Below are positions 1,904 through 49,597 of a DNA stretch of 64,000 nucleotides, piece by piece. Position numbers and translations under genes: made by a program. The notes beneath the pieces were generated by a model that did no database searches, had not been told where the DNA came from, and saw only the letters and a program-made list of their open reading frames with translations. Origin of the DNA: Maylandia zebra (taxonomy: Eukaryota > Chordata > Actinopteri > Cichliformes > Cichlidae); assembly GCF_041146795.1 (NCBI RefSeq), contig NC_135170.1, positions 3,896,533 through 3,960,532 on the forward strand, in the 5' to 3' direction. Positions within the stretch are counted from its first letter, which is position 1. Every line of letters begins with the position of its first letter.

Positions 1904-3284
1904 GGTGTGCGTAATTATTCAGCCCCCTGAGTCAACACTTTGTAGAACCAGCTTTTGCTGCAGTTCCAGCTGCCAGTCTTTTAGGGTCTGTCTCTACCAG
2001 CTTTGCACATCTACAGACTGAAATCTTTGCCCATTCTTCTTTGAAACAGCTCCAGCTCAGTCAGATTAGATGGACAGCGTTTGTGAACAGCAGTTTTCAG
2101 ATCTTGCCACAGATTCTGGATTGGATTTAGATCTGGACTTTGACTGGGCCATTCTAACACATGGATATGTTTTGTTTTAAACCATCCCATTGTTGCCCTG
2201 GCTTTATGTTCAGGGTCGTTGTCCTGCTGGAAGGTGAAGCTCCGCCCCAGTCTCAAGTCTTTTGCAGACTCCAAGAGGTTTTCTTCCAAGCTTGCTCTGT
2301 ATTTGGCTCCATCCATCTTCCCATCAACTCTGACCAGCTTCCCTGTCCCTGCTGAAGAGAAGCCCCCCCAGAGCATGATGCTGCCACCACCATATCTGAC
2401 AGTGGGGATGGTGTGTTCAGAGTGATGTGCAGCGTTTTGCATTTTGGCCAAAAAGTTCCATGTTGGTCTCATCTGAGCAGAGCAGCTTCTTCCACATGTT
2501 TGCTGTGTCCCCCACATGGCTTGTGGCAAACTGCAAACGGGACTTCTTCTGGTTTCCTGTTAACAATGGCTTTCTTCTTGCCACTCTTCCATAAAGGCCA
2601 ACTTTGTGCAGTGCATGACTAATAGTTGTCCTATGGACAGATTCCCCCACCTGAGCTGTAGATCTCTGCAGCTCGTCCAGAGTCACCATGGGCCTCTTGG
2701 CTGCATTTCTGATCAGCGCTCTCCTTGTTCGGCCTGAGTTTAGGTGGACGGCCTTGTCTTGGTAGGTTTACAGTTGTGCCATACTCCTTCCATTTCTGGA
2801 TGATGGCTTGAACAGTGGGATGTTCAAGGCTTGGGAAATCTTTGTGTAGCCTAAGCCTGCTTTAAATTTCTCAATAACTTTATCCCTGACCTGTCTGGTG
2901 TGGTCTTTGGACTTCATGGTGTTGTTGCTCCCAATATTCTCTTAGACAACCTCTGAGGCCGTCACAGAGCAGCTGTATCTGTACTGACATTAGATTACAC
3001 ACAGGTGCACTCTGTTTAGTCATTAGCACTCATCAGGCAACGTCTATGTGCAACTGACTGCACTCAGACCAAAGGGGGCTGAATAATTACACACACCCCA
3101 CTTTGCAGTTATTTGTAAAAAATGTTTGGAATCATGTCTGATTTTCGTTCCACTTCTCACGTGTGCACCACTTTGTGTTGGTCTTTCACCTGGAATTCCA
3201 ATAAAATTGATTCATGTTTGTGGCCGTAATGTGACAAAATGTGGGAAAGTTCAAGGGGGCTGAATACTTTTGCAAGCCACTGTA
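1904..3284 (-). mobile_element. Tc1/mariner-like transposon, degenerate
   Basis: The right end reads CTTTTGCAAGCCACTGTA, the typical fish Tc1 terminus in reverse, next to a 'gggggctgaatac' block. The left end carries the matching TTATTCAGCCCCCTGAG block but has lost its outer bases. Length (about 1.4 kb) and internal transposase remains fit a former full-length element. It abuts the hAT-like element, suggesting insertion near its edge or loss of sequence at the junction. Confidence 0.85.
2011..2689 (-). pseudogene. Tc1-like transposase, frameshifted
   Basis: Two overlapping minus-strand frames (2417-2689 and 2011-2529) together give recognisable Tc1 transposase. The first has the N-terminal helix-turn-helix end (ISHALHKVGLYGR, ARRKPLL). 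The second has SIMLWGGFSSAGTGKLV, FQQDNDPEHKA with the second catalytic Asp, and WPSQSPDLNPIQNLWQDLK. In Tc1/mariner proteins these belong to the DDE catalytic core. The break between the frames and the missing N-terminus mean it is inactive. Confidence 0.9.
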
Positions 3285-5680: not shown

Positions 5681-7204
5681 CAAGGCCACCACCATCGTCC
5701 CCGTGCCCAAGAAGTCTTCTGTGTCCTGTCTCAATGACTACCGCCCTATCGCACTTACACCCACCATCATGAAGTGCTTCGAACGGCTCGTCATGAGACA
5801 CATCAAGACCCTGCTGCCCCCCTCACTGGACCCAATGCAATTTGCATACCGCCATAACCGCTCAACGGACGACGCCATCTCCACTGCACTCCATCTTGCC
5901 CTGACACACTTGGACAAGAAGGACTCACACGTCCGAATGCTGTACATAGATTTCAGCTCAGCATTTAACACGATCATCCCCCAACAACTGATCGGAAAGC
6001 TGAGCCTGTTGGGCCTGAACACCTCCCTCTGCAACTGGATCCTGGACTTTCTGACCGGAAGGCCTCAGTCAGTACGGATCGGGAACTGCACCTCCAGCAC
6101 CACCACACTGAGCACTGGGGCCCCACAAGGCTGTGTGCTCAGTCCTCTGCTGTTCACACTGCTGACTCATGACTGTGTAGCAACACACAGTTCAAATCAC
6201 ATCATTAAATTCGCTGATGACACGACCGTGGTGGGTCTCATTAGCAAGAACGACGAGTCAGCGTACAGAGAGGAAGTGCAGAGACTAACGGACTGGTGTA
6301 AGGACAACAACCTGTCTCTGAATGTTGACAAGACAAAAGAGATGGTTGTTGACTTTAGGAGGACACGAGGCGACCACTCACCGCTGAGCATCAACGGCTC
6401 CTCTGTGGAGATCGTTGACAGCACCAAATTCCTGGGCGTACACCTGGAGAAGGACCTCGGCTGGTCCCTCAACACCAGCTCCCTGCACAAGAAAGCCCAA
6501 CAGCGTCTCTTCTTTCTGAGAAGACTGAGAAAGGCCCGGCTTCCACCACCGATCCTGACCACCTTCTATAGAGGAACTATTGAGAGCATCCTGAGCGGCT
6601 GCATCACTGTCTGGTTTGGGAGCTGTGCCATATCAGACCGCAAGACCCTACAGCGGATAGTGGGAACAGCAGAGAAGATCATCGGGGTCTCTCTACCCTC
6701 TATTGAGGACATCTACACCACACGCTGCATTCGCAAAGCCACCAGCATTGTGGCTGATCGGACACACCCCTCTCACACACTCTTTACACTCCTGCCATCT
6801 GGAAAAAGGTACCGAAGCATTCGGGCACGCACATCCAGACTGTGCAACAGCTTTTTTCCACAAGCCATCCGTCTCCTCAGCAAAAAGGGACTGACTGATA
6901 AACACGCACACACACACATACACTAACATTATCACTCAGCTTAACTCAAATACCTCAAAACATTGAGACTGGACTGACTAACCAACACAAAGCGCAAACA
7001 CACTGACCTACACCACCAAACCATCGCACACACCAACCTGTAAATGCTCTTTTGCACAATATTATTACTAGATATATTATATATTATTTTTTTTGCACTA
7101 ACTTGTCTTGTAGCACCTTGGTTCCTGGAGGAACGTTGTTTCGCCTCACTGTATTTTTAAACTGTATATGGTTGAAGTGACAATAAAGTTGAACTTGAAC
7201 TTGA
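5681..7204 (+). mobile_element. 5'-truncated L2-like LINE
   Basis: Homology starts abruptly inside the reverse transcriptase at about 5681, so the endonuclease half is missing, as is usual for 5'-truncated LINE copies. After the coding end at 6926-6928 there is a noncoding 3' part ending in a GACAATAAAGTTGAACTTGA-type tail, characteristic of fish L2/Maui-like elements. An A-rich stretch follows at 7217-7232. Confidence 0.85.
5682..6928 (+). CDS. LINE reverse transcriptase, partial but open
   Basis: The open frame runs without a stop for about 415 codons and enters from the truncated side; the GTG at 5703 is not a real start. The blocks are in non-LTR order: [67 protein letters not shown] (the catalytic FADD) and VDFRR. 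A C-terminal segment follows with [11 protein letters not shown] and [11 protein letters not shown]. The protein would copy LINE RNA at a nicked target. About 20 residues around [13 protein letters not shown] look close to the norm. The copy is recent enough to be open but has no endonuclease or promoter, so it should not mobilise itself. Confidence 0.85.
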
Positions 7205-7232: not shown

Positions 7233-7702
7233 TGCAGGCTGTAATGTAAAACACCTTTAGTTCTTTTTTTAATTTTACCTGCTTTAAAGATGTTAACAGA
7301 AACCGAATATCTCCAGTAGATGGCGATGGTGCATTACAGTAATATCCATAACAAGGCAAACAAAGATTTGTACCAAAAAGGAACACCCACCAAAGATTCA
7401 TCATAGTAAAACATTAGATCACATGTCCACTTTATTCCATATTTTCATGTTAGTTATTGGCTGTTATATTTAGATCTTAACATGAAGTAATATACTTTTG
7501 CCATTTCGGATGTGTGGGGCTTGTTGAAGCTGCCATAGCGATGTCCTGCAAGTCCAGTAATATTTACATCTGATATGACCTCGTTTGTATTTGGTGCCAA
7601 TAAGTAGAAATATTAACTGAAAGACCTGAGATCATCTTTAATCTGACAAAGTCAGTAATGAAGTTGTGATTTAGTTTTTGGACTGCTTGAACTAATCAGT
7701 AA
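7233..7702. other. Intergenic, no gene seen
   Basis: AT-rich sequence between the LINE tail and the 3' end of the first ferritin gene. No exon, RNA gene or repeat was recognised. Confidence 0.4.
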
Positions 7703-7746
7703 AATGAGTCACAGATGCAGACAGACCAAAGATCCAGCTCAAAATG

Positions 7747-7752
7747 TTTATT
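7747..7752 (-). terminator. Polyadenylation signal, ferritin copy A
   Basis: TTTATT on the plus strand reads AATAAA on the minus strand, about 240 bases downstream of the stop codon. That is a typical 3'UTR length for ferritin H. Copy B has the matching signal at 15,356-15,361. Confidence 0.65.
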
Positions 7753-7988
7753 AAGATGAACAGATCAGAAACATTTCCAAATGTCAGACAGCTTAGAAGC
7801 AGAGCCATACCCTGATAACATCCATCGCTCCATGTGACATTTCGCACAAAAACACCACAACATACAAGAACTGATGCCAGCTTTAAAGCCAGGAAATCAG
7901 GAAAGAATCAGCTGGAGCAGAAGTGAGTTTACTTCAAAGCCTGTGTTGTTAACATGCTGACTCCAGGCTCACTTCTACGTCTCAGCAT

Positions 7989-9212
7989 TTAGCTCTTGTC
8001 ACCCAGAGTGTGCTTGTCAAACAGGTACTCTGCCATCTTGTTGTTGTGGGCATCCATGCGGGTGAGGTTAGTGATGTGGTCACCCAGCTTCTTGATGGAC
8101 TTCACCTGCTCATCCAGGTAGTGGCTCTCCAGGAAGTCACACAGCTGGGAAAACAAACTACAGTTAACATTTGATGATTTGTCAAACATACACAGCATCA
8201 ACTAGTTCAGTCTTTAACCCCAAACTCTTCCCTCCAACTCCCACTTACATGAGGGTCATTATGCTGAGAAGCCAGCTTGTGCAGGTCCAGCAGAGCCTGG
8301 TTGACATTCTTCTCCAGCTGCAGAGCACACTGCATGGCCTCCAGCCCGCTGCCCCACTCATCACGCTCTGGTTTCTGCACAACAAACAATTCTGTTAGAG
8401 ACTGAACACTTGTTTTAAGCTCTGTGTACACATTACACACTAACGCTAACAACAAGAGAACAAGTGTCATAACACTGCTCATTAATCCCAGTTTCTGTGT
8501 TAGAGACACAGTCAGGTATGTCACAGCAGGACTGGTTCAGTTTGTACACACCTTGATGTCCTGGAGTAAGACGCGACCTCCTCTCTTGTTCTGGAAGGAC
8601 AGCAGCTTGTCAGCGTGCTCCCTCTCCTCATGGCTGTTCTCCTTGAAGAAGTGGGAGAAGCCTGGCAGGGCCACATCATCACGGTCAAAGTAGAAGGCCT
8701 GACAAATCAGACACAGGTTATTAGTACACAGCACCAATTATTCTGCAAATACAGCATCGTGACAAACAGTTATGGAGACAGACATGATTCATGATGGACA
8801 GTTCAGCTGGTTTAGACCGAGGTAACTGCTGAACTCGAGACTAAAGAAAAGCCAAACGAAGCACGACGCAGCATTTGGGTTTTTCGGTGATGTGTTTGGG
8901 GTGAAAATACACTCCGCATCTGGCAACCTGCCCAACTGTGATAAACAACCAACAAACGAGCTGCGACTGAAATCATGCATTACTGAAATTAGCAACAACA
9001 TACCGGACTTTACATTTAACGACTACTCCGTTCTCTTTGTCTAGCATTAAGCTAATATAGCTTGAGACTAAGGTTATTACAGACATCAGCATCACATGAC
9101 GTGTTCTCACCATAGAAGTGTAGGTGTAAGACGCAAACAGCTCCATGTTCACCATCCGGTTGATGGCGGCCTCGCAGTCGCGGTGGTAGTTCTGGCGCAC
9201 TTGGGACTCCAT
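7989..9212 (-). CDS. fth1: Ferritin heavy chain, copy A
   Basis: Coding exons: 9212-9111, 8698-8552, 8374-8249 and 8144-7989, all phase 0, giving 176 aa, the usual fish H-chain length. Ferritin H is a 24-mer cytosolic cage subunit that oxidises Fe2+ and stores iron. All ferroxidase ligands are present: Glu24, Tyr31, Glu58, Glu59, His62, Glu104 and Gln138. Motifs include [21 protein letters not shown] and ending [11 protein letters not shown]. No signal peptide is seen, so the product should be cytosolic. The start ATG begins [10 protein letters not shown], the standard family N-terminus. A TATA box and an iron-responsive element lie upstream. The protein is identical to copy B. It could equally be named an M-type fish ferritin. 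Confidence 0.97.
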
Positions 9213-9360
9213 TTCGGCTGGCGTTTCTTGTGCTTTTTATTAACAAAAACGGTGCAAAAATAAAGCTTCACGTCGACTTTATGTGTAGTGTTCAAGTAGA
9301 AAAGGGTTTTTCTTCCGAAGTGCAGAGTAGCTGAAATACAAAGCGGGACGAAGTCAAGAA

Positions 9361-9390
9361 GTTCCGTTCAAACACTGTTGAAGCAAGAAC
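9361..9390 (-). promoter_or_regulatory. Iron-responsive element (IRE) of ferritin copy A
   Basis: The minus strand reads a stem-loop with the CAGTGT apical loop inside TTCAACAGTGTTTGAA, and the unpaired C (TTGCTTC) five pairs below, with flanking GTTC/GAAC pairs. This is the classical ferritin IRE. IRP1/IRP2 bind it under low iron and block translation. It lies near the predicted cap site, about 150 bases upstream of the ATG, as needed for translational control. Confidence 0.95.
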
Positions 9391-9440
9391 TCCTCAAAGA
9401 TTTCTCCCCTGGTGTGAAACGGCACACTCGCGGGTCCCTG

Positions 9441-9448
9441 TATTTATA
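9441..9448 (-). promoter_or_regulatory. TATA box of ferritin copy A
   Basis: TATTTATA on the plus strand is TATAAATA on the minus strand, about 50 bases upstream of the IRE. Farther upstream lie an AP-1/antioxidant-response-like TGACTCA (9524-9530), a CCAAT motif on the opposite strand (9491-9495) and CACGTG (about 9620). Such sites occur in ferritin promoters, but their use here is inferred. Confidence 0.75.
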
Positions 9449-9669
9449 CTCCACCGGAAGTGCTCGTGCAAGATGTGACGTATGTTTCCACCAATCACTG
9501 AGCCGGGGCGTCTGTACCAGCTGTGACTCACAGGATGAAGTTGCATTTTTTTCTCCTCCTGATTCGTAGAAATCTCATCATCCACTTTAATGTTTAATGT
9601 GACCTGCTGGGAGATAGTCACGTGCAATGACAAAGCATTTTCCGTAGTTCAACAGGTAACAAGCAACAT

Positions 9670-10244
9670 GGGTAAAATATATAAAGATTTTCTCAAAAAA
9701 CATGTAGACGTCCTGATGGACATGAGAGCCGATATGCACACGCACATGGTATGAATGTATTTGTTTAATACTGTTTAAAAATACTGTTTAAAACGTTTAT
9801 TCCAAACCTTGCTTCCAATGTGCCAGACCGTCCGCTAATTTTTAAATAGCAGTACTTTCCTAGCCTTTTCAAGGGCTTTTAAGCTCTAAGTTTTAATATG
9901 GAGATTGGTGGCTTTTTTACTCATTTTCATTCCTGCAATGATTCATGCATAAAAAAAAGGAACAAAACTCAAGTGATGAATCAGTCGTGTCTACTCCTAA
10001 CAGAGAACTTAGCAAAGAACCTATTTTAAATTATAGCTTTTGGCACTTTGTTACTAGCTGTGTATAACAAAGGACATAATTTATTTCAATTTCTTTAGTT
10101 GAATCTACCACCAGTCCTGAAGATAACACAGATTAACAGACATAAACAGACATTTTCTCCCCCATCAACATCTATCTTCCGGTACTACGTTACTAGGCTG
10201 CCTATTTAAGCGGCTCTTACTCAGTACCTGTGTGGTACCATTAC
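9670..10244. other. Diverged duplicate flank, no gene
   Basis: Sequence upstream of ferritin copy A. It aligns patchily with 17,278-17,720 (for example TTTTAAATT...CACTTTGTTACT against 17,572 on). No exon was recognised. Confidence 0.4.
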
Positions 10245-10970
10245 CACAGATCACACGTCCAAAAGACCTCAGCAACTACAAGCTAGTAGCACTGACCTCA
10301 CATCTGAAGAAGACCCTCGACAGGCTAGTACTGAAGCATCTTCAGCCCCGGTTAGGTCTCCATTGAATCAACTGCAAAAGCCTATCAGTCTAGCATTGGG
10401 GTGGATGATGTCATCATCTACCTCCTGCACCGAGATCGTGCTACCTGAAGAAGCCTGGAAGCACAGTTAGGCTAATGTTCTTTCTCTAGTTTCTCCAGTG
10501 CTAACCCCATCCAACCTGGACTTGTGAGGGACAAGCAGTCAGGGGTGGACTACTACCTGTCCCAATAGATATTGGACTATCGCACTGGCTACCCACAGTA
10601 TGTGAGGATGCAAGGCTGTGTTTCTGACAGGCTGGTCTTCAGTACAGGGCCCTATAAAGAACTGTGCTAGCACTATTCCCGTTCACTCTCTACACTGCAG
10701 ACAGTTACCAACCTAGACTGTCATCTGCAAGAGTTTCCTGATGACTCTGCCATAGTTGGCCTTATTAAAAGTGAGGATGACTCAGAATAAAGACAGTGGA
10801 CTCAGGAGTTTGTGGACTAGTGCCAGCAGAACCATCTCCAGTTCAACACGGGAAAACCAGGAGCTGGTGGTGAATTTCCACAGGGGCAGACCCACCACAC
10901 CAACACCAGTGAACATCTAGGGAACTGAGACCCTGAGTCCCTCACCCAGTGGTTTTGGAGAGCTTGCCAA
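10245..10970 (+). mobile_element. Rex1-like LINE remnant
   Basis: Badly decayed reverse-transcriptase sequence. Recognisable stretches correspond to the family blocks DDVIIYLLHR, LDYRTGYPQYVRMQ, SDRLVFSTGP, FPVHSLHC and FPDDSAIVGLIKSEDDSE, followed by LQFNTGK and ELVVNFHR. Many stops and frameshifts interrupt it. It is absent from copy B of the duplication, so it inserted after duplication or was lost from B. Confidence 0.75.
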
Positions 10971-10974
10971 AGTG

Positions 10975-11346
10975 ATAGAATTATGATCCCTCTTAGCCAT
11001 GGACTGACCTCCCCAAAGCTCGACCTTAACATTACTGAAGCAGTGTAAGAGTACAGAACAAAAAGAGGCCAACAAAGAAGAGCTTTGCACGTTCTTTAAG
11101 AAGAAGCCTGGAGAACTATTCCTAAAAACTGCATAGAGAAATGACAAGAATGCTATCTACGAGAGTTCAGCCTGTGGTATATAGAATATGTAGGATGAAG
11201 GTTTTCATACCAAAGTATTGACTTTAAAGCTCGGTAAAAATGTGAAAACTAGATTTTCATGTATGTATGCAGATGTTCCAGTACATCTTTGAACGTCCTT
11301 TTTTGTGGCAAAATATAAAGGACAGGTGCTTCAGGACGGTATATTC
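10975..11346 (+). mobile_element. Tc1-like transposon 3' remnant
   Basis: The sequence matches the 3' half of a fish Tc1 element. It has a transposase C-terminal stretch (TTCTTTAAGAAGAAGCCTGG, then GAACTATTCCT) and a noncoding end with TGTGGCAAAATATAAAGGAC and CAGGACGGTATA. A second copy of the same family is at about 45,235-45,555. Coding capacity is lost. Confidence 0.75.
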
Positions 11347-11714
11347 AGGACTTTACTGTGCTGTATAAAAGTTAGATTATTTGAGTTAACGCTGGCCTAG
11401 TACATAAAACCTGCACAAACTGAAGCTGATTCAGCTGATGTAACACATGACATCCAAAAACTGCTGATAATGGTGCTTACAACCAAACTGTTTTTTATTG
11501 CATTGCTCAACACCACAGTGCTGTTGACAGGAATTTCTCAGGCTAAAGCATTACTACTGCTGAGTGAAAACAACCTAAGAAATGTATTTTTATATACTTT
11601 TATATCAGCCTATTTATGTAAAAGTAGCTTTTTCAATGAAACCTTCAAGAATATCATCGCAGCAGAGGTATGTAACACACATTTGAAGATTATTCAGTGT
11701 GCTGCAGTCTCACA

Positions 11715-12090
11715 TACTTAATTCATCCATTCTCTTCTGCTTATCCTTTTTCATGGTTGCCTAGGACGGGCTTTTTCAGAGCCTATCCCAGGTGTCCCAA
11801 GAGGCAGGCTACACCCTGGACAGGTCGCTACTCTGTCGCAGGGCTAACACATAGACACAGACAACCATTCACACTCGCATTCAATTTAGAGTTTCGAACG
11901 AACCTATCCCCGCTAACTACATGTCTTTGGACTGTGGGAGGAAGCCGGAGTACCCGGACAGAACCCACGCAAACACACGGAGAACATGCAAACTCCACAC
12001 AGAAAGACCCTGGCCTGATGTCAGAATTGAACTCAGGACCTTGTTGCTTTGAGGCAGCCATCGTGACACCGTGCTGCCCTACCCCTGGAT
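11715..12090. repeat. Common fish interspersed repeat
   Basis: This element begins with ATTCATCCATTCTCTTCTGC and contains ACATGTCTTTGGACTGTGGG, AACATGCAAACTCCACACAG and a GAACTCAGGACCTTGTTGCT end. The pattern is widespread in teleost genomes. The open frames across it are shadows. It lies only in copy A of the ferritin duplication. Confidence 0.75.
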
Positions 12091-12287
12091 TTACTTACTT
12101 TAGTTGATCTGTACCAGGAACCCAAGAACTTCTTATTTGAGTTCTTTTTTCCTCTTGTTTCTGTACCAGCCAATCACCATCTCACTCAAGAAGGCATACT
12201 CATCTTAGACTATTTATTATCTTTATGCGCATCAGTATGTAAGCCTTTTGGCTTAACATGGCATTTCACACACAGTGGGAGTCATGC

Positions 12288-12484
12288 TTTCAGGTCCACA
12301 ATGAATGACCGTCTTCATGTCTGCGGACGACAAAACAGACGTGGAGACGGTCATTCATTGAGGACCTGAAAGTGGTCGATCTTTCATGGGACGAGGCTGA
12401 AGATGTGGCTGCAAATCGAGCTCGTTGATGATCCCTTGCCGCCCAATGCGCCATCTGGCGCAGGAGGAACCAAGTCTAAGTAAA
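12288..12484 (+). mobile_element. LINE 3' fragment with fold-back end and target duplication
   Basis: A 197-base insertion flanked by perfect 11-base direct repeats GGGAGTCATGC (12277-12287 and 12485-12495). Copy B of the duplication (about 18,595-18,620) has the uninterrupted site. The 3' part reads like the end of a LINE ORF2 (DLKVVDLSWDEAEDVAANRA..., stop TAA). The 5' part is an inverted repeat with 37-base arms (12287-12323 and 12336-12372, 3 mismatches). Confidence 0.7.
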
Positions 12485-12495
12485 GGGAGTCATGC

Positions 12496-13268
12496 AGACC
12501 AACAAGGCTCATCTTTAAAATATGTCTCAGAACAGGTTCGTTCTAAAACACACCAAAGGTATTCCAACAATTTTTTAGCATAGCTGCAAGAGTTTGAAAC
12601 CAGATAATATCACTATGTAACACATTCCTCAATCAAGGAAGCAGCACTTGTTTTCCATAGAAATCAGTTGTACTAAAAATATCACAGAATGAACTGAAAG
12701 TGTCAGAGCTATAAGTATGATGTGATGTTTCTGAGATATTATTACTGCTGCATTATGTGTATGTTGCATTTTATGTCTTAAGTGGACCTTCTTTTAAAAG
12801 TGTTTTTAACTATTTTATTTAATAACGGGCAGTTTGACCAACAGCGATACATCATAGTCATCATATTCATCCAGTTTGTAGCACTACTGTCCAGTCAGGA
12901 TCGGATAACCATAAGAGGCGTTTTCCATGAGCTCAGAAAAAACTTTAAAAATCTTTATATGTTTTAAGAAAAGGGAAATGTTCATTCTATAAAGAAAAAC
13001 ACAAATCAAGTAATTTCATCAGAAAATTTTAAATCATCACAAGTAGAAAAATGTGGTTTTCATTAGACAGCAGGGGTAAGAAAATAGTAAAAGAGTTAAC
13101 TAAATACAGTACTATAATGTACTTAAGTAGAAGTATAAAGTACTATAAATTAAATAAAAAAATTAAGTACACGTGCTTCCATGTTTGGAAAAGATACATA
13201 AGTACACTAACAGTAAACTTAATTACATGTCAGTTTTCAATGTAATTTAATTCATAAGTAAATTTGTA
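12496..13268. other. Intergenic, AT-rich duplicate flank
   Basis: Diverged counterpart of about 18,620-19,560. No exon or RNA gene was seen. Small open frames here are not supported. Confidence 0.4.
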
Positions 13269-13315
13269 AAATGTTCGCATCAGGTCAAATGAAATTTGAC
13301 CTGATGCGAACATTT
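13269..13315. repeat. Perfect 22-base inverted repeat with 3-base loop
   Basis: The arms 13269-13290 and 13294-13315 are exact reverse complements separated by GAA. Core: GTTCGCATCAGGTCAAAT. The corresponding part of copy B lacks it. It may be a small fold-back insertion. Confidence 0.9.
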
Positions 13316-13696
13316 GTGCTGGGTATGAACTTTCCGCACATTTCCTCAGTGATTAATTATAAATAAACCATTAATGTACTCAAAATTATTGCCTTGTTTT
13401 CATGATGGGTTTTTCTGTTTCTGCTTTTTTTTCCATTGTATGTTCCAACACTGCCAACCCAGCAGAAACCTCTGTTTCCATATGAGACAGCTTTTTTTCA
13501 CTTAGGTCTTATAACTACATGTTATCATCCTGCATGAGGATTTGTGAATGTTAGTAAAACGTTATCACAGTATAGACAACAATCTCATAGCTTAGTATTC
13601 TGTGAAAGGACATCACAGAGGTCAAGATAAGAAAGACGAGCTAAAGACAGATCCAGAGTCAGTTTCCTGTCAACACTGACCTAAAAACTATAAGAT

Positions 13697-13975
13697 GTCC
13701 AATCCAATCCATCTTTATTTATAAAGCACTTTCTGGGGTGGCTGTAGCTCAGGTGGCAGAGCAGGTCAGCCACTAACCAGAAGGTCGGTGGTTTGATCCC
13801 AGGCTGCCTCCTGGCTGCATGCCAAATATCCTTGGGCAAGATACTAACCCCGTGTTTGCCTACTGGTGGTGGTCAGAGGGCCCGGTGGCGCCAGTGTCCG
13901 GCAGCCTCGCCTCTGTCAGTGCGCCCCAGGGCAGCTGTGGCTACAACGTAGCTGCCATCACGAGTCTTATCTCTA
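13697..13975 (+). mobile_element. tRNA-derived SINE, mosaic with AFC-like body
   Basis: A tRNA-like head starts at about 13,737 with an A-box (TAGCTCAGGTGG) and B-box (GGTTTGATCCC). From about 13,856 to 13,972 the body is nearly identical to the AFC-like SINE at 40,155-40,262 (TGCCTACTGGTGGTGGTCAG). The two copies have different heads. A short 'ATTTATAAAGCACTTTC' tail fragment precedes it at 13,717-13,733. Confidence 0.75.
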
Positions 13976-14084
13976 AAGGCAGATCGTTCACAGTTTTGGA
14001 TCTGCTACAGGAAAAGCACGATCTCCTCGAGGTTTACGCTCAGTCCTGGGTACATTCAGGAGCAGCTGATCAGCTGACTTGAGA

Positions 14085-14480
14085 GAGCAGGTGAGTGTAT
14101 AAGGCTGTAGCAGCTAAGAGAGATAAGATGGGGCTAGGCCATGGAGGGCTTTAAAAGCAAATAAAAGAATTTTTAAATGAATCCTAAAATGAATGGGCAG
14201 CCAGTGAAGTGAAGCTAAAATAGGGCAAATGTATTCAAACGTTCAAGTGCCAGATAAAAGACGAGCTGCAGCATTTTGCACCCTCTGTAAACGAGTAATG
14301 TATGAATCACTGATCCCTATATAAAGTGCATTACAGTAATCCAGCTGAGTGCTAACATAGACGTGGATCACTGTCTCAAAGTGCTGCTGTGACAGCTGCC
14401 TGAGCTGCAAGAAGCTTGATTTTACAACTGCCTTAATCTGTCACGTTCAGAGTCCACTTTCAGCCCCAGGTTTGTGACAG
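14085..14480. repeat. Unclassified fish interspersed repeat
   Basis: It includes GCCATGGAGGGCTTTAAAAG, CAGCCAGTGAAGTGAAGCTA and CATTACAGTAATCCAGCTGA. These sentences recur in many fish genomes. No ends or coding domain were identified. Confidence 0.5.
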
Positions 14481-14746
14481 TTGGCTTATTATACTGGGCC
14501 AAGGTATCTAAATACACGTTGGAGGTCAAAAACCAAAAACATTCACCTCAGTTTTCTAGTCATTAAATCTGAAAAAGTTAAGAGTTAAGCTTTAATGTCA
14601 TCAAGACTCTGAAATAATGGCTGTATGGAATATGTGCCTTTTTCACTTTAACTTTATTAGTAATTAACATCGTTTCACATGTGTGGTTCTTGTCAATGTT
14701 GAAGCTACAATTAAATTATAATTTCCCACAAGGGACTCAAGAACCT

Positions 14747-14766
14747 ATGGAAGACCGTTTCCGCCA

Positions 14767-14807
<41 letters not shown>

Positions 14808-15059
14808 AATAACTCAACATTGAGTTATTTTCTCGAAATTTCGACATATTAACTCAAAATTTTGAGAAAAGCAACTCGAAATTTCGAGTTAGTGCTGCCA
14901 ATCAGTAATCTACGTGAATGACGTCATTTCCATTCACGTAGATTTTTGATTGGCAGAGCTAACTCGAAATTTCGAGTTATATTTCTCGAAATTTCGAGAA
15001 AATAACTAATTTCGAGTTATGGATACTAGCTTTTTTTTGTGGCGGAAACAGGCTTCCAT
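14747..15059. mobile_element. Palindromic hAT-type MITE with 8-bp target duplication
   Basis: Perfect 8-base direct repeats AAGAACCT flank it (14739-14746 and 15060-15067). Terminal inverted repeats of about 21 bases read ATGGAAGACCGTTTCCGCCA and, in reverse, ATGGAAGCCTGTTTCCGCCA. An A-run (from about 14,769) follows the left end. The interior is built of CTCGAAATTTCGAG palindromes and a central inverted repeat GCCAATCA...TGATTGGC around TGACGTCA. There is no coding capacity. Confidence 0.9.
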
Positions 15060-15067
15060 AAGAACCT

Positions 15068-15299
15068 GAAGCAATCTGGGTGTTATGAAAGAGGCATTTT
15101 GGTTCAACAACCTCACAGGATTTTTCCTCTTACACTTCCTGGCAGGGTAGAGAAATCCTGTAACAGTTTCTGAAATAGTTGGACCAGCCTATCTGACACC
15201 AAACTCCTTCTGAAGCCATTTGAACTGAAACACTATACTTAAATGCATTGTCTGTTGAATAGGCATACATCTGACAGAGCAGTTGATCTAAACTATAAT
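15068..15299. other. Spacer between MITE and copy B block
   Basis: No gene or repeat was recognised. The copy B duplication begins near 15,300. Confidence 0.4.
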
Positions 15300-15355
15300 A
15301 AAATGAGTCATGATAAGTGACTGATGCAGAGAGACCAAAGATCCAGCTCAAAAGG

Positions 15356-15361
15356 TTTATT
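15356..15361 (-). terminator. Polyadenylation signal, ferritin copy B
   Basis: AATAAA on the minus strand, at the position matching the signal of copy A, with slightly different neighbouring bases (GGTTTATTC against TGTTTATTA). Confidence 0.65.
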
Positions 15362-15596
15362 CAGATGAACAGATCAGAAACATTTCCAAATGTCAGACAG
15401 CTTAGAAGCAGAGCCATACCCTGATAACATCCATCGCTCCATGTGACATTTCACACAAACACCACAACATACAAGAACTGATGCCAGCTTTAAAGTGAGG
15501 AAATCAGGAAAGAAATCAGCTGGAGCAGAAGTGAGTTTACTTCAAAGCCTGTGTTGTTAACATGCTGACTCCAGGCTCACTTCTACGTCTCAGCAT

Positions 15597-16820
15597 TTAG
15601 CTCTTGTCACCCAGAGTGTGCTTGTCAAACAGGTACTCTGCCATCTTGTTGTTGTGGGCATCCATGCGGGTGAGGTTAGTGATGTGGTCACCCAGCTTCT
15701 TGATGGACTTCACCTGCTCATCCAGGTAGTGGCTCTCCAGGAAGTCACACAGCTGGGAAAACAAACTACAGTTAACATTTGATGATTTGTCAAACATACA
15801 CAGCATCAACTAGTTCAGTCTTTAACCCCAAACTCTTCCCTCCAACTCCCACTTACATGAGGGTCATTATGCTGAGAAGCCAGCTTGTGCAGGTCCAGCA
15901 GAGCCTGGTTGACATTCTTCTCCAGCTGCAGAGCACACTGCATGGCCTCCAGCCCGCTGCCCCACTCATCACGCTCTGGTTTCTGCACAACAAACAATTC
16001 TGTTAGAGACTGAACACTTGTTTTAAGCTCTGTGTACACATTACACACTAACGCTAACAACAAGAGAACAAGTGTCATAACACTGCTCATTAATCCCAGT
16101 TTCTGTGTTAGAGACACAGTCAGGTATGTCACAGCAGGACTGGTTCAGTTTGTACACACCTTGATGTCCTGGAGTAAGACGCGACCTCCTCTCTTGTTCT
16201 GGAAGGACAGCAGCTTGTCAGCGTGCTCCCTCTCCTCATGGCTGTTCTCCTTGAAGAAGTGGGAGAAGCCTGGCAGGGCCACATCATCACGGTCAAAGTA
16301 GAAGGCCTGACAAATCAGACACAGGTTATTAGTACACAGCACCAATTATTCTGCAAATACAGCATCGTGACAAACAGTTATGGAGACAGACATGATTCAT
16401 GATGGACAGTTCAGCTGGTTTAGACCGAGGTAACTGCTGAACTCGAGACTAAAGAAAAGCCAAACGAAGCACGACGCAGCATTTGGGTTTTTCGGTGATG
16501 TGTTTGGGGTGAAAATACACTCCGCATCTGGCAACCTGCCCAACTGTGATAAACAACCAACAAACGAGCTGCGACTGAAATCATGCATTACTGAAATTAG
16601 CAACAACATACCGGACTTTACATTTAACGACTACTCCGTTCTCTTTGTCTAGCATTAAGCTAATATAGCTTGAGACTAAGGTTATTACAGACATCAGCAT
16701 CACATGACGTGTTCTCACCATAGAAGTGTAGGTGTAAGACGCAAACAGCTCCATGTTCACCATCCGGTTGATGGCGGCCTCGCAGTCGCGGTGGTAGTTC
16801 TGGCGCACTTGGGACTCCAT
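15597..16820 (-). CDS. fth1: Ferritin heavy chain, copy B
   Basis: Coding exons: 16820-16719, 16306-16160, 15982-15857 and 15752-15597, 176 aa, identical in sequence to copy A. Exons and all three introns match A with a fixed 7,608-base offset. The seven ferroxidase ligands (Glu24, Tyr31, Glu58, Glu59, His62, Glu104, Gln138) are intact. It has its own TATA box, IRE and polyadenylation signal, so it should be a working gene rather than a processed copy. It makes the same cytosolic iron-oxidising cage subunit. The two loci may act as a dosage increase. The fish convention for naming paralogues (fth1a, fth1b) cannot be settled from this window. Confidence 0.97.
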
Positions 16821-16968
16821 TTCGGCTGGCGTTTCTTGTGCTTTTTATTAACAAAAACGGTGCAAAAATAAAGCTTCACGTCGACTTTATGTGTAGTGTT
16901 CAAGTAGAAAAGGGTTTTTCTTCCGAAGTGCAGAGTAGCTGAAATACAAAGCGGGACGAAGTCAAGAA

Positions 16969-16998
16969 GTTCCGTTCAAACACTGTTGAAGCAAGAAC
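16969..16998 (-). promoter_or_regulatory. IRE of ferritin copy B
   Basis: Same stem-loop as copy A, base for base: CAGTGT loop, bulged C and flanking GTTC/GAAC pairs. Iron-regulated translation through IRP1/2 is expected for both genes. Confidence 0.95.
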
Positions 16999-17048
16999 TC
17001 CTCAAAGATTTCTCCCCTGGTGTGAAACGGCACACTCGCGGGTCCCTG

Positions 17049-17056
17049 TATTTATA
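17049..17056 (-). promoter_or_regulatory. TATA box of ferritin copy B
   Basis: TATAAATA on the minus strand, at the same distance from the IRE as in copy A. The upstream TGACTCA, CCAAT and CACGTG motifs are also conserved, since the identical tract ends only at about 17,277. Confidence 0.75.
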
Positions 17057-17334
17057 CTCCACCGGAAGTGCTCGTGCAAGATGTGACGTATGTTTCCACC
17101 AATCACTGAGCCGGGGCGTCTGTACCAGCTGTGACTCACAGGATGAAGTTGCATTTTTTTCTCCTCCTGATTCGTAGAAATCTCATCATCCACTTTAATG
17201 TTTAATGTGACCTGCTGGGAGATAGTCACGTGCAATGACAAAGCATTTTCCGTAGTTCAACAGGTAACAAGCAACATATATAAGATATTTAACGATAAAT
17301 CTCAAAACGCGTAAAATCGCTTCTTTGTTTAATA

Positions 17335-17500
17335 CGTACAATGCTGTGCAAAAGTCTTGAGCCAAAGCTGATATTTCTTTTTCAAGTAGCCAGACCTCAA
17401 TAATTCCCAGTTCTGAAGGGCGTTTGAAGTTTTTATCTGGACAAGTTTTTTTAAACAAATGTTTTTTGCTTGTTTAATAAAGGGACTTAAGACTGATCTT
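17335..17500 (+). mobile_element. Tc1-like terminal fragment
   Basis: It begins with CAATGCTGTGCAAAAGTCTT, the terminus typical of the fish Tc1 family whose 3' halves lie at 10,975 and 45,235. No transposase remains. Confidence 0.5.
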
Positions 17501-20500
17501 TGAAACATTCAAGCCAAAAAGGCACAAAACCCAAAGGTTGACCCAATTGTGTCGATATATAACAGAAAACTTTTTAAATTGCATCTTTAGGCGCTTTGTT
17601 ACTTGCAGCCTGTCAATAAAACACATACTGTGTTTCCACTTCTTTTGTTGAATCAGTGAAAAATTCCAAAAACAACCTGTTTAGACGGGCATTTGTTCTA
17701 ACCAACAAGTACAAAAGAAGAACACTTTTGCATATTATTGTAGTTAATGGTTACATAAAAGCAGCATAAACTGAGGCAGAGTTACGCCATAAATCTAACA
17801 CGTGACATCCAAAAACTGCTGATAATGGTGTTTACAACCAAAGAGTTTCTTATTGCATTGCATTGCTCAACACCACAGCACTGTTGGCAGACATTACCAG
17901 CAATAGTAGAACCTCCCAGGCGGAAACATTACTACTGCTGGGTAACACAAAACGAAAACTAAGACATGTATACACATTTTTGTATTAGTCTGTTCATGTA
18001 AGAGTATCGTGTTAGATGAAACTTGTCCTTGAATAGTCTCACTGCAGCTGAGGTATAAGTGTAACACAACGTCACATACTCAATCCTTTCTATGTAAAGT
18101 GCATGTAGAAGTAAATCCACTCATGATATGTTTTTAATAGAAAGCCCAAAACACATACAGTAAGCTTTAATATTCATCTTCATGTAATCATAAATATCTC
18201 TTCTGTACGTTTATCTTTAACTTGACTTTGTCTTTACATCAAGTCAAGCACTACAAGACAACACCTACAGCGGTGTGAGCAGTACTTTTCCACTGTGCCC
18301 GAGAGACCTGCCAGTCTGAACAGGTGTGCTGGTAATCACGTGTTCCCAGCACGAGGACGGAGCCTGCATTTTCTTTGCTGCACCCTTTCAGCTTCATTTT
18401 CTAATAATAAAATGAATGAAAGAACATCACTAGACTTGCTTTTAAGCAGTTGAAATGACAGAGAAAGCCTACTGATCTACTCTTTCTTTCCCAGTGAATA
18501 ACTTCCACCATGTCTGCTTGTCTTAGAGTAATTGATACCTTCCTGCACACTAAGGAGAACATATGTAAGCCTTTTGGCTGAACGTGTCATTTCACACACA
18601 GTGGCAGTCACGTAGGCCGACACCGCTTGTCTCTAAAATATGTCTCAGAACAGGTTTAGTTCTCCTTATGATTTGCTGTAGTGTGTGATTTTAGCTGACA
18701 CGTAATGTACGAGAGTAAACAATACCTCTCTCAAACACATCAATGATATTGCAAAGGTTACATCTTATTAGTTTGACACATTTTAAATAGTGGTACAAAA
18801 TTATGGGTTTTTTTTCAAGGTACAAGAAGGAGATAGTTTTGTTACTCGCTATCTACACAGTATATATGTGTTTGCACATCTGTAAATAACTCTCCTGCCA
18901 CGATGTTGGAATTATAAAAGCAAATGCATGTAACAAATTCTAAGGACGGATTTATTGTAGGACAGACCATTAATCACACTGATGATTATTAGTTATGACT
19001 TGTGGAAACATGCGTGGGATTAAATAAGCGTTTCCTTCTTCTTACTTCGTTTTGAAAATGTTGTTGTTATTTTTTCCTTATGTTTCCTTTTGTTTGTTTG
19101 TGCTTTTTTTGTAGTTGCTGTTGTGTAATTTTAACATGTTCAAAATAAAGCCACATTACATTTTTAGCATAGTTGCAAGAGCTAGAGACATCATTACATA
19201 ACACATTCCTCAGTCAGAGAAGCAACACTTGTTTTTCCAGAGCGTCAGAGCTACAGGTGTTACATATGATGCATTTATACCTGTAGACGTTTAAGTTGGA
19301 GCTGTTTTAACTGTTTTATTTGCCAATGGGCACAGCAATCATCATATTCTATAAGATTTGTCAGTAGCGGCGCTGTCCAATCAGGACCATGTACTAATAA
19401 GAGACATTTTCCATGACCTCAGAAAAAAAATCTTAAAACACCTCTACATATATTTCAAGATAAAGGAAAATGGATTCAGAAAAACATAAAGGTGTTAATT
19501 TTGTCAGAGTATTCAGAATCAGTGGAGAAATTTGTAGTTTTTGGTACGGAGCAAGGGTAAGAAAACTGCAATCTGAAAAGTTATAAAACTGTTAAATAAA
19601 TAATGACCTGAGTAAAGACACCAGTTCCTGTGTCATATTAAGAAATAAGGAAGTAGACATAAAAAGTTCCATAAAATGAAAAAAATCAAATACATGTTGT
19701 ATTTAATGCCAGCCCAATAGATAGCTTTGTGTTCACATGGCTTTTATGTCACTCAAGTCTTATAACTAAATTTCATCCTGCAGTAAAAATGATTGTTAAT
19801 AAAAGGCTTTCACAGTATAGAGACAACAATCACATAAGTTAGTGTTCTGTGAAAATGGAGGAACCACAGAGCTGAAAGGAAGGAAGGACGAGCTAAAGAC
19901 AGATCCACAGTCACTGCTCACTTATCATTGTACTAAAAAGCACTGTAAGCTGTCCTGTGTTGACTGTACTTCACCAACACCTGCAACAACACATAAGCAC
20001 TCGTCATCAAGTGGCTACACTTGCTTTGTTTTCCACTCTCATGCTTAACAAAGATGACAGAGCAGTTCAGACAGCAGCTTTGCCATCTTTATTTTGTGCA
20101 CTCTCGTGTAAGACGATGAGTCCGGGTTGTACCATCAGGTTCAGCTGAGTGTTGTGCGATGTCATCGCTGTGAGTCAGCATTCTGCAGCCGCCAGCACCC
20201 GTCTTCCTTTTTCTCTGTTCTGCTTTTGTTGTCACAGGGCTGTGAGAGGGAGGACACCTCGTGATCGCATCTCATTGTACGTTTACCTCAGTGCTCTGCT
20301 GGATGGGACCGGTTTGGAAAAACGAACAAGGAACAGAAAGTGTGAACGAAGGAACCAAAAGTGTACTTGAGTTACCGAAACTGTTTTTGACCAGTTATCT
20401 GTGTGAACTAGTAGTAATTAACGAAAAGAACTGTATTCATACTTTCTCATGTTTGTTAGGTACATTTGTTCAACTCATGTAGGCATGTAGACGTGGTGAA

Positions 20501-27000: not shown

Positions 27001-30000
27001 CCATGACTCCCAGGGCTTCAGGGATGGAGAGAGCGGAGCCAGAGTTTGGCATGGGCTGAAGGAGAGGGAAACAACGAGCGATCAGACGGCCTCAGCTGAT
27101 ACTTTTCTATCATGTTTCAGCATCTTTAGCAGCTTTGAGTAACATGAAAGGTCTCACCAGCGCTCCTCCCTGGACTTTGTCACAGTAAGCGGCCCAAACG
27201 CTGAGCCTGGTAATGCTGAGCTCCACCTCCTTCTCAGCCTCGTCCACTGACAGGCCGGTCTGTGTGTTGATTGCTGCAGCTATGTCCCGCCTCTTCGCCT
27301 CAAGGCCCTTGGCCAGAGAGTAGAGTGACTGGGCACGTGCAGACGGGCTCTTTTTCATCCAGCTGTAAGAGACAAAGGCATTCAAAGAAATACAACAATA
27401 ATAATATAAATAAAACAAAAGCCTGATGCCATTTGTTGGGATTTATGTGTCCGTCAGGTTAAGCTTCATTACGTGGATAAAATCTATCAACTGTTAAAGA
27501 CTGCCGATGAGTAATGGCCACACGTCTCTGCACTTTGTCTTCTTATCTGTTCCCACAGTCAAGTTGTACATTGACTGATGGCAAACGCACACAGCCCGGC
27601 CCTACAGTAACCAGCTGATAAGAGCAGATTAAGAACACAATGTTCTACATGGAAGGCTCAGAGGACTCATCTACATGTTGTGTATATGGAGTAAAATGTA
27701 ACAAACAACATTAAAGTGGATCTACGCTGCTCAGTTCACTCTCCAGATTTCTGCTTTGTGACTCTACTCGTCGAACAGCCTCGTCTGACTCCAAGTTAAA
27801 AATATTAACATTTCTTTAGTGGCTCTGTCGTAGACGCAGAACTTCATTTTAAATCCTTCAAGGTCTTAAATAATCACATCTTAAAATCCTCATATTACCG
27901 TAGTATACCAACAAAGCACTCTGCTCTCAGACCGGCAGTGTCTCAATGCACAATCAGCTTTCAGCCCTTCTGTGGAAGCAGGTGCAGGTGTGGGAGCTGA
28001 ACCCCGTCTCCACTTTAAGAAAAGACTTGAAAGAACCTGTGAAACCATCCAGAAATACTACAGGGATGATTTGTACCTACGTCATTACTTGATGGCTTTT
28101 CCACTAATATAGTGACTACATCTTGGAAAATCTGTGCAGTTTCATAAACTCTCAACAGCATCTGTTGTGCGAGTACACAAACCTCAGTTGTGTTTGTGGT
28201 TTTTTTGAATGACCTGTACGTGTTTGTGAACACGTACAGGTAGTTTGCGCTCTCACCCTGGCTGGACTTTGACAGCAGCCTCCACAGCATTGCGAACGTC
28301 CTTCCGGCCCCCGTCTGGGCAGTAGGCCAACAGACCACCACTACCACCTGATGGCTGCACAGCCACACTGCAGCCAGACACTGACTTACATGCTTTACCA
28401 GCAACAAACTGCAGGTGGGACTGAGGGGCTCTAGAAAAACGAAAGAAAATGTAATGATGCGATTAGTGCTGTGCAACACATTTTTCCTGCAACATTTACC
28501 AGCTATAATGCTTCACAAACATACCTGGCAGGGTCCGACTCAGCAGGAATGATAGGTGGGGACGTTTCTGTTCCGAACTGCGTGTAGTCCATGGAGACGG
28601 GAGAGGAGCGAGGAAGAGGGGGGGAGGAAGAGGAGGGGCGTAGAAACTGGTACAGACCCTGACAGGATAAAGAGGGGATATAACTATCGAGTGATTTATG
28701 TGGGCGTGTTTAGTAGGGATGTTTTGCACTGCAGGAGCTGGTGTCTACGGAGCTGGAGACCAATAAGAACCTCATATCTAAAGACCGAGGTTATTAGTGC
28801 TGCGGGGCTATATGAGCCTAACAGAAAACACTAAACTAAGGACGGTGAGACGACACCCAGGGGACGTTGAATTCAAACATTGAACTACAGCAGCATGTGC
28901 AAGCAGTGTTACTGATCCAGGCTCTGTCGGCCTGTCAAAACAACAAACCTCCTGTCCTCCATCGGTGCAGGTCCCGCTGTCTTTGTGACCGGAGACGGGC
29001 AGACAGGGGTCACAGATGGAGTGGGAATTCACCCACACAGAGCCAACTGACAACCTGGCAGGACACGAAGAAGAAATATTCATTTTAAAGGAAATAAATA
29101 TGAATGTTAGTACTAAATGGACGGTCACGAGATGTGAAGCCGACCATGAAAGTCAATGTATTCGCTTTACACCGAGCACAGGTGGTTGTGACGAAACGAC
29201 TGTATATGAAAGTAAAAAGAAAAGTCAACAAAGAAACGAAGAGAAGGAGAAAGAGGAAACAGACAGCAGAACAGAAGGACAGAGAGCAGAGAATGCAGAT
29301 GCACCTCTGAGCTGTCTCCAGAGCGAGGGTGAGGTCTTCGGTCCAGATGGATGCTGCCTGACCGTGAGGACTGTGGTTCCCTGCACAGGGCAGAAAATGT
29401 TACTCCGGCGCCTTGTTCGACACAGGCCCAGGTCTCTGATTACGATGCAAATGCAACCCTTTAAAAAACCCTCAAACCTTATTCACGTTGGTGTCTTATA
29501 GGAGACGTTTTCACATGAAGCTTCTTACCAAGAGTCACGGCTTCTGTGTTGCTTCTGAAGGTCATGAGGGGCAGCAGTGGTCCGGGACAGGGGTTGAGCA
29601 CACATGGTGAGGAGGGGGCCACCCCACAGAGCACAGTGGAAGGATACTGGGCACCTGACGTGGGATCAGCACAGGACTGAACCAACTGAGGAGAGATCAT
29701 TTAAAACTGCTAGTTATGGGCAGTAAACTCAGAGGAAATGAAGACAAAGTGGTGCACACCATCAGCAGACGAGTCTAAGGGAACCTTCAAGTTCGTTGAA
29801 ACTTTTCCTGGCATTAACATTTTTAAACCCTGATGTCTCAAAGTCTTCTTACTAACCGTGGCTCCCAGCTGCTGAGCCTCCTGCACAGCAGCATCCACCC
29901 GTTCCCTGTCTGCCTCACTGGGCAGGGTCACACATTTCATCTTGGCCATTCGCAACCGGAGATGGGCAACAACACTGTCCACCACACTCTCCTGCACACA

Positions 30001-33000: not shown

Positions 33001-33660
33001 AAAAACCTTTACACAGCTGTTTTTACACAGCTGTTTTTACACAGCTGTTTTTACACAGCTGTTTTTACACAGCTGTTTTTACACAGCTGTTTTTACACAG
33101 CTGTTTTTACACAGCTGTTTGCAGATTAGCAATCATAGACTGTACACAGAAGATGGGAGTAGCCAGCTGATTTTACTTAGTTTTAGCAGGCCTGGCACCA
33201 TGAACGAGGGGTAAACCTTTATTGAGAGATCCCATCTTCTACATTTGGTATTTGGCAGAAGCTCCTGTTAAACTCTTTTCAAGTTCAGGTAAAAAGAGGA
33301 AACCCCTACAATGTTTTTCACGGACTACGGTGGGATACGGACATAAAAAAACAATCTACATGAACAGTAATCCCTCGACACATTATAATGTAATTATGTG
33401 TCTAGTTCTGTCACATGTTTGTCTTGTGAGGTACACTGGGCTAACGGTTAAGCAACTTCACGAGTCCAATAACTTATATATAGGTATCCGCTAACTCCGC
33501 AGCACAGCGTGCTGTGAGTAAGTTTAGTTTCAAAGCAGTCTCCGAATATGAATCTGAACGTAACCTGTACCTGTGCAGTAGCAGTGCTAGAAGTTGCTGC
33601 TGGCCCGTACTCCATGCTTTGGAAAATCTCGTACACTGTCTTGGTGCTGCTAACAGCCAT
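24078..33660 (-). CDS. aldh16a1: Aldehyde dehydrogenase 16 family, member A1
   Basis: Seventeen coding exons: 33660-33571, 32293-32194, 32065-31939, 31852-31695, 31609-31532, 31007-30820, 30257-30099, 30015-29857, 29685-29529, 29380-29305, 29054-28949, 28658-28525, 28430-28257, 27362-27158, 27055-26870, 24515-24390, 24251-24078. All have GT-AG junctions and unbroken phase, giving 798 aa (human 802). The family has a full ALDH domain followed by a second, partial ALDH-like domain. Landmarks: [11 protein letters not shown] at the start, [11 protein letters not shown] and [10 protein letters not shown] in domain 1, [10 protein letters not shown] and GHKDSG near its end, [12 protein letters not shown] and NAVIMVPSQ in domain 2, KSVWIPTA at the end. 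Where active ALDHs have catalytic Cys and Glu I read RKKEVFW and VSPCVG, so it is probably a pseudoenzyme. Intron 16 carries a large MITE. Confidence 0.95.
25563..26288. mobile_element. Non-autonomous DNA transposon in aldh16a1 intron 15
   Basis: Terminal inverted repeats GGCTACGTTCACACTGCAGG (25563 on) and CTGCAGTGTGAACGTAGCC (ending 26288). Sub-terminal repeats of AAATCCGAT/CCGAT type follow. It is about 726 bases long with no transposase. No clear target duplication was seen. It is inside the intron between the 27,055-26,870 and 24,515-24,390 exons. Confidence 0.85.
30359..30789. mobile_element. MITE with GTGGGGAC ends, in aldh16a1 intron 6
   Basis: Short inverted ends AGTGGGGAC (30,359 on) and GTCCCCAC (ending about 30,789). 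The interior has CCCTAACCCTAATC-like sequence, a pattern common in fish genomes. It is interrupted by a second MITE at 30,524-30,736. Confidence 0.6.
30524..30736. mobile_element. hAT-type MITE nested in another MITE
   Basis: Perfect 8-base target duplications CCATAAGG (30516-30523 and 30737-30744). Inverted ends CAGGGGTGTCCAACTCCAGG and TACCCCTG. 213 bases, noncoding. The 8-base duplication and CAGGGGT terminus are typical of hAT elements. Confidence 0.9.
33011..33120. repeat. 14-bp minisatellite in aldh16a1 intron 1
   Basis: Eight head-to-tail copies (the last one 12 bases) of ACACAGCTGTTTTT with no differences. Each unit contains one palindromic E-box CAGCTG. Confidence 0.97.

Positions 33661-35284: not shown

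Positions 35285-49597
<14,313 letters not shown>

Follow-up and report, generated by a model that had tools for sequence, protein, structure and literature searches.

How do two genes that lie inside an old and heavily diverged tandem duplication come to be identical in every base, introns included? The question is raised by a stretch of 64,000 nucleotides from the cichlid Maylandia zebra (contig NC_135170.1 of assembly GCF_041146795.1, forward strand; hereafter the window), in which two H-ferritin (fth1) genes, here called A and B, stand 7,608 bases apart. A first-pass annotation of the window had attributed their identity to gene conversion, and had named as its alternative a second, recent duplication of the gene alone. 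We consider it very probable that A and B belong to a set of four H-ferritin genes that arose by old duplications and then underwent repeated in-register interlocus gene conversion, with the most recent A-B exchange covering at least positions 7907-9669 of the window.

Self-comparison of the window returned a single long direct repeat, which pairs 7704-9698 with 15313-17307. Base-by-base comparison demonstrated that within this repeat 7907-9669 of copy A equals 15515-17277 of copy B throughout (minus strand; 1,763 bp, 0 differences, offset 7,608), and the identity tract includes the coding sequence in four exons, three introns, an iron response element (IRE) and the TATA promoter. The right border is abrupt: mismatches start at 9670/17278, straight after CAACAGGTAACAAGCAACAT. 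Both the identity at a constant offset and the sharp step at 9,669 that the annotation had described were thus borne out. Gene A runs on the minus strand from ATG to stop over 7989..9212 (exons 9212-9111, 8698-8552, 8374-8249 and 8144-7989), and gene B, with the same exons and protein, over 15597..16820 of that strand. Each is a four-exon H-ferritin gene with GT/AG splice junctions and the same product of 176 amino acids (Pfam Ferritin, 139.9 bits), whose closest solved relative is 1bg7 (E 1.2e-87). The ferroxidase ligands of human H-ferritin, which we take to be E27, Y34, E61, E62, H65, E107 and Q141 in human numbering, were matched by eye, by the offset of the human matches among solved structures, to E24, Y31, E58, E59, H62, E104 and Q138 of the A/B protein. 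The IRE lies in the 5' untranslated region (UTR) at 9358..9393 in copy A and at 16966..17001 in copy B (both minus strand, 52.4 bits, cut-off 34 bits), and in each copy a TATA box precedes it by about 55 bases.

Outside the tract, the two copies differ. On the left, a tier at the end of the 3' UTR (7704..7906 in A, 15313..15514 in B) carries 7 substitutions and 2 indels, with events from 7711 on and 192 of 201 aligned bases identical; the match reaches to about 7704/15313, and left of 7704 homology between A and B was undetectable against dinucleotide shuffles (7500-7693, z 1.0; 7300-7693, z 0.0). On the right, a diverged flank with copy-specific gaps extends over 9670..13700 in A and 17278..19955 in B. 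Sensitive blast gave 8 collinear alignments in this flank, two of them overlapping and hence at 7 places, which reach 13700/19955; the B flank, reversed as a control, gave 0 alignments with the A flank. Four blocks, each compared with 200 dinucleotide shuffles, scored z 11.9, 21.2, 14.5 and 18.3, and 793 of their 999 aligned bases are identical; an unrelated control pair scored z -2.2, and the stretch past the right end (13700-13900) z -0.3. The gaps between blocks are unequal and occur in both copies (10106-11375 and 12285-12484 in A, 18664-19160 in B). In the 962-Mb genome (63 contigs), block 11376-11679 matches just 2 places, its own and that of its counterpart in B, which rules out a dispersed repeat as the source of the right-flank homology for this block. 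The old duplication of the right flank is real, and it continues beyond 9,669 in diverged form as the annotation had claimed. An open reverse transcriptase frame of 407 amino acids (RVT_1, 115.5 bits) adjoins copy A at 5703-6926 on the plus strand.

Ferritin family and DNA searches of the genome, in which every first-look candidate was scored (18 and 9) and counts are lower bounds, revealed further copies. The window occupies 3,896,533-3,960,532 of the contig called C4 here, and two more genes lie on the same contig: copy C at 3.828-3.831 Mb, 76 kb to the left of the window copies and on the same strand, and copy D at 4.719-4.721 Mb, 0.81 Mb to the right and on the opposite strand. The reading frames of both are open; relative to A, the coding sequence of C differs at two bases (one silent, one giving F26L) and that of D at none, and both possess the IRE in the 5' UTR (D 47.7 bits, C 40.2 bits). 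Retroposition as the source of the copies was rejected, as introns are retained. On a different contig, a truncated ferritin with introns (relic E; C18:31464027-31464763, 31.464 Mb) retains exons 3-4, breaks off within intron 2 and has a one-base gap in exon 4; it stands outside the homogenised group. More distant ferritins were found on C1, C7 and C8, and no additional ferritin was found in a joined stretch of 160.5 kb that holds A, B and C or in 60 kb around D. Two further segments were noted on C4. An isolated 116-bp piece of ferritin 5' UTR (C4:20931998-20932113), about 16 Mb from D, equals copy D at 116/116 bases and A/B at 99.1%, and the surrounding 6 kb held no other ferritin match. A segment of 857 bp, perhaps a young mobile element, is common at 99.3% to the surroundings of C and D, where it takes unlike places relative to the gene (counted from the tract start, -3516..-2660 at C and +9850..+10704 at D).

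Alignment of the four genes revealed a mosaic whose borders depend on the pair compared. In the core (7907-8715: start of the 3' UTR, exons 4-2 and introns 3-2), A, B and C are identical at 809/809 positions and D agrees at 807/809; introns 2-3 show no differences among A, B and C, and the roughly 88 synonymous sites of exons 2-4 are unchanged in all four copies. In intron 1, a stretch in which A equals B (8743..8978) is where the other copies step away from them: C departs at 8834, after a single earlier difference at 8740, and D departs near 8716-8743 and rejoins near 8978-9023, after which A and D agree at 615/619 positions over 9023-9641. The island in intron 1 of D is homologous to that of A (z 21.3; best local alignment 169/215; blast 73% over 143 bp) and hence reflects old divergence, not insertion; it is 39% diverged in the four-way alignment (143/236 identical) and 21-27% diverged by pairwise alignment. 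The middle of intron 1 in C was not alignable with A (z 1.0) or D (z 0.9). The promoter and 5' UTR of C are also more diverged, with 83-98% identity per 50-bp window over 9250-9500 and 78% at 9500-9550. A run test on the 336 polymorphic columns of the four-way alignment (10,000 shuffles, p floor 1e-4) reached the floor in 6/6 pairs, strongly in five and narrowly in CD. The longest concordant runs, with the highest shuffled value in parentheses, were AB 253 (68), AC 49 (13), AD 68 (23), BC 49 (16), BD 68 (22) and CD 9 (8).

Relic E provides an internal reference. In the left flank, A, C and E are nearly equidistant, with 87-89% identity (A-C 111/127, A-E 113/130, C-E 166/186); over 7553-7703, A and C agree at 128/151 positions. 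In the gene, where A, B and C are mutually identical, E agrees with B at 74/82 positions in the 3' UTR, 152/155 in exon 4, 96/104 in intron 3, 122/126 in exon 3 and 50/55 in the part of intron 2 that it retains, and its introns are thus 8-9% different where those of A, B and C agree fully. Equidistance in the flank together with identity of A and C in the gene means that flank and gene have different histories: with E as reference, and over short flanks, gene and flank relationships are in conflict within one genome. A and C therefore appear to have become identical after they separated, E having drifted meanwhile. The left tier adds to this picture. Among its nine events, A shares the state of E at 5, B shares it at 2 and neither does at 2, and B, C and D are in one common state at 7, with the alignment of E uncertain near 7885-7905; this points to A having retained mostly older states in the tier, and to homogenisation of B, C and D with one another.

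Any explanation has to accommodate what was observed: the identity tract with its sharp borders, the mosaic and the diverging relic. The A/B block sits in register within an older diverged duplication on its right flank, and A and C are in register with both flanks. In-register replacement, borders that are sharp and specific to each pair, and old islands enclosed by near-identical sequence together argue for repeated interlocus gene conversion. Old duplications would have given rise to A, B, C and D on one contig, and since then the genes have probably been overwritten repeatedly in register, when break repair copied one paralogue onto another without crossover. Besides the most recent exchange between A and B, separate tracts would have equalised exons 2-4 and introns 2-3 in all four copies, except at 2 sites in D, and the flanks, together with some of intron 1, would have escaped conversion and would thus display the true age of the copies. 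We infer conversion rather than cycles of unequal crossing-over from these patterns, and likewise the direction of donation and the dates. If a mutation rate of 3.5e-9 per base per generation, as for Malawi cichlids, is assumed, the A/B flanks would be about 34 million generations old or more, a lower bound that covers alignable blocks only, and the last A-B exchange would have occurred less than about 0.24 million generations ago (0/1,763 differences). The gene conversion proposed in the annotation is supported, by the diverged island of D and by a core that A and C share and from which E differs, and it would reach beyond two genes, to a four-member family over about 0.9 Mb with one member inverted.

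Several observations weigh against this reading. Between A and B, the 269 bp adjoining the right border reach no more than marginal alignability (z 2.9, with the best of 200 shuffles scoring higher), and the first 131 bp right of the border scored z 1.4; an indel could therefore obscure exactly where the border lies. The middle of intron 1 of C may be the product either of divergence or of replacement by other DNA. The left-flank comparisons with E are short (127-186 aligned bases), and homology in the left flank was found for A, C and E only, not for B or D.

Homogenisation of the gene might also have been achieved by repeated unequal crossing-over, with expansion and contraction, between A and B. 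A tandem pair with 1,763 identical bp would presumably be a good substrate for it, and the genomic content of the ferritin heavy subunit was raised in one of four cichlid species by array hybridisation, in the portions of that report covered here (PMC3944005). However, the diverged flanks are kept, which would require two exchanges exactly at the tract borders, and with D, inverted and 0.81 Mb away, crossing-over would invert the segment instead of homogenising the gene. Unequal crossing-over could contribute between A and B, not with the inverted D, and as an explanation of the locus it is unlikely. An artefact of assembly or polishing, by which the consensus of one gene was written into several places, has a very small probability in our judgment. 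It would account for perfect identity over 1,763 bp, and the sequence compared here is that of the assembly; yet the five contigs concerned are 31-70 Mb each, no N occurs in either of the examined regions (160.5 kb and 60 kb), the outer surroundings are distinct for each copy, and private differences occur in the gene (2 in the core of D, 2 in exon 1 of C, and those that set copy A apart in the left tier). A second, recent duplication of the gene alone, inserted into the older duplicated block, would produce the abrupt step at 9669/17277, and the stray 5' UTR piece at C4:20.93 Mb and relic E on C18 indicate that fragments of the gene are indeed copied to other places. A fresh insertion, however, would leave an older gene behind, and none is left over between the homologous right flanks, with which the tract is in register; nor can it make the diverged intron 1 island of D between near-identical parts, or a near-common core in all four copies with borders that vary by pair. 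Copies C and D and relic E thus contradict this alternative of the annotation, which we reject as highly improbable. Strong purifying selection alone, to which the conservation of the ferritin protein and the IRE would be due, has next to no chance of being the explanation, because A, B and C also show no change in introns 2 and 3 or at about 88 synonymous sites of exons 2-4, the same introns are 8-9% different in relic E, and the introns of the C1, C7 and C8 ferritins, which are much more distant genes, gave no alignment save C7 intron 3 (within a gapped 420-column alignment at 67.9%).

Repeated conversion may have a further side. It is possible, and we offer this tentatively, that continuing conversion keeps the family as one effective sequence over about 0.9 Mb, including the inverted member 0.8 Mb off, and that selection favors it. 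Ferritin shells of 24 subunits might gain from identical subunits and common IRE control, and intron 1 would then be the part permitted to escape homogenisation.

Other features of the window include a DDE transposase fragment at 2011-2529 (minus strand; DDE_3, 42.2 bits), a perfect 14-bp minisatellite at 33008-33120 with 8.1 copies of TTTACACAGCTGTT, and pieces of two neighboring genes, of the aldehyde dehydrogenase family at 27110-27418 (minus strand; Aldedh, 31.4 bits) and of a MYST zinc finger at 44464-44811 (plus strand; zf-MYST, 82 bits).

A genome that contains four convertible copies besides one diverging relic offers a compact natural experiment, from which the age of the family, the borders of tracts and how far conversion extends (0.8 Mb, inverted) can be read. 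Gene trees or dates drawn from the ferritin coding sequence or from introns 2-3 would mislead in this fish. The locus is also a likely site of copy-number change, which would agree with the raised dosage in one of four cichlids in the portions of the array study covered (PMC3944005). There, Rhamphochromis 'chilingali' had raised genomic content of the ferritin heavy subunit, with 4/8 features significant, and the content was not significant in the other three cichlid species tested. Our fish resembles that species in extra dosage of the ferritin heavy subunit in an African cichlid; the portions of the study covered contain no ferritin sequence, locus structure or conversion analysis. In zebrafish, fth1a and fth1b are named in a table with unlike figures, 77 and 76, in the part covered of another paper (PMC3944790). 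As far as that part goes, the two fishes are alike in possessing more than one H-ferritin gene, and they differ in that four copies here lie on one contig and encode one protein, except for F26L in C.

Conversion between duplicated genes is a well-known mechanism. Human alpha-globin HBA1/HBA2, the long-wave opsins of primates and fish, and class II genes of the major histocompatibility complex (MHC) are examples of interlocus gene conversion and concerted evolution. We know of no comparable case in ferritins, and none for a ferritin family was found among the matches listed in open-access PubMed Central (titles and starts of abstracts). The ferritin locus resembles conversion in HBA1/HBA2, the opsins and MHC class II in its near-identical, intron-bearing gene bodies, sharp borders, diverged flanks and mosaics. 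It is unlike them in that the gene is an H-ferritin with an IRE, and in that one member, inverted and 0.81 Mb away, shares the core.

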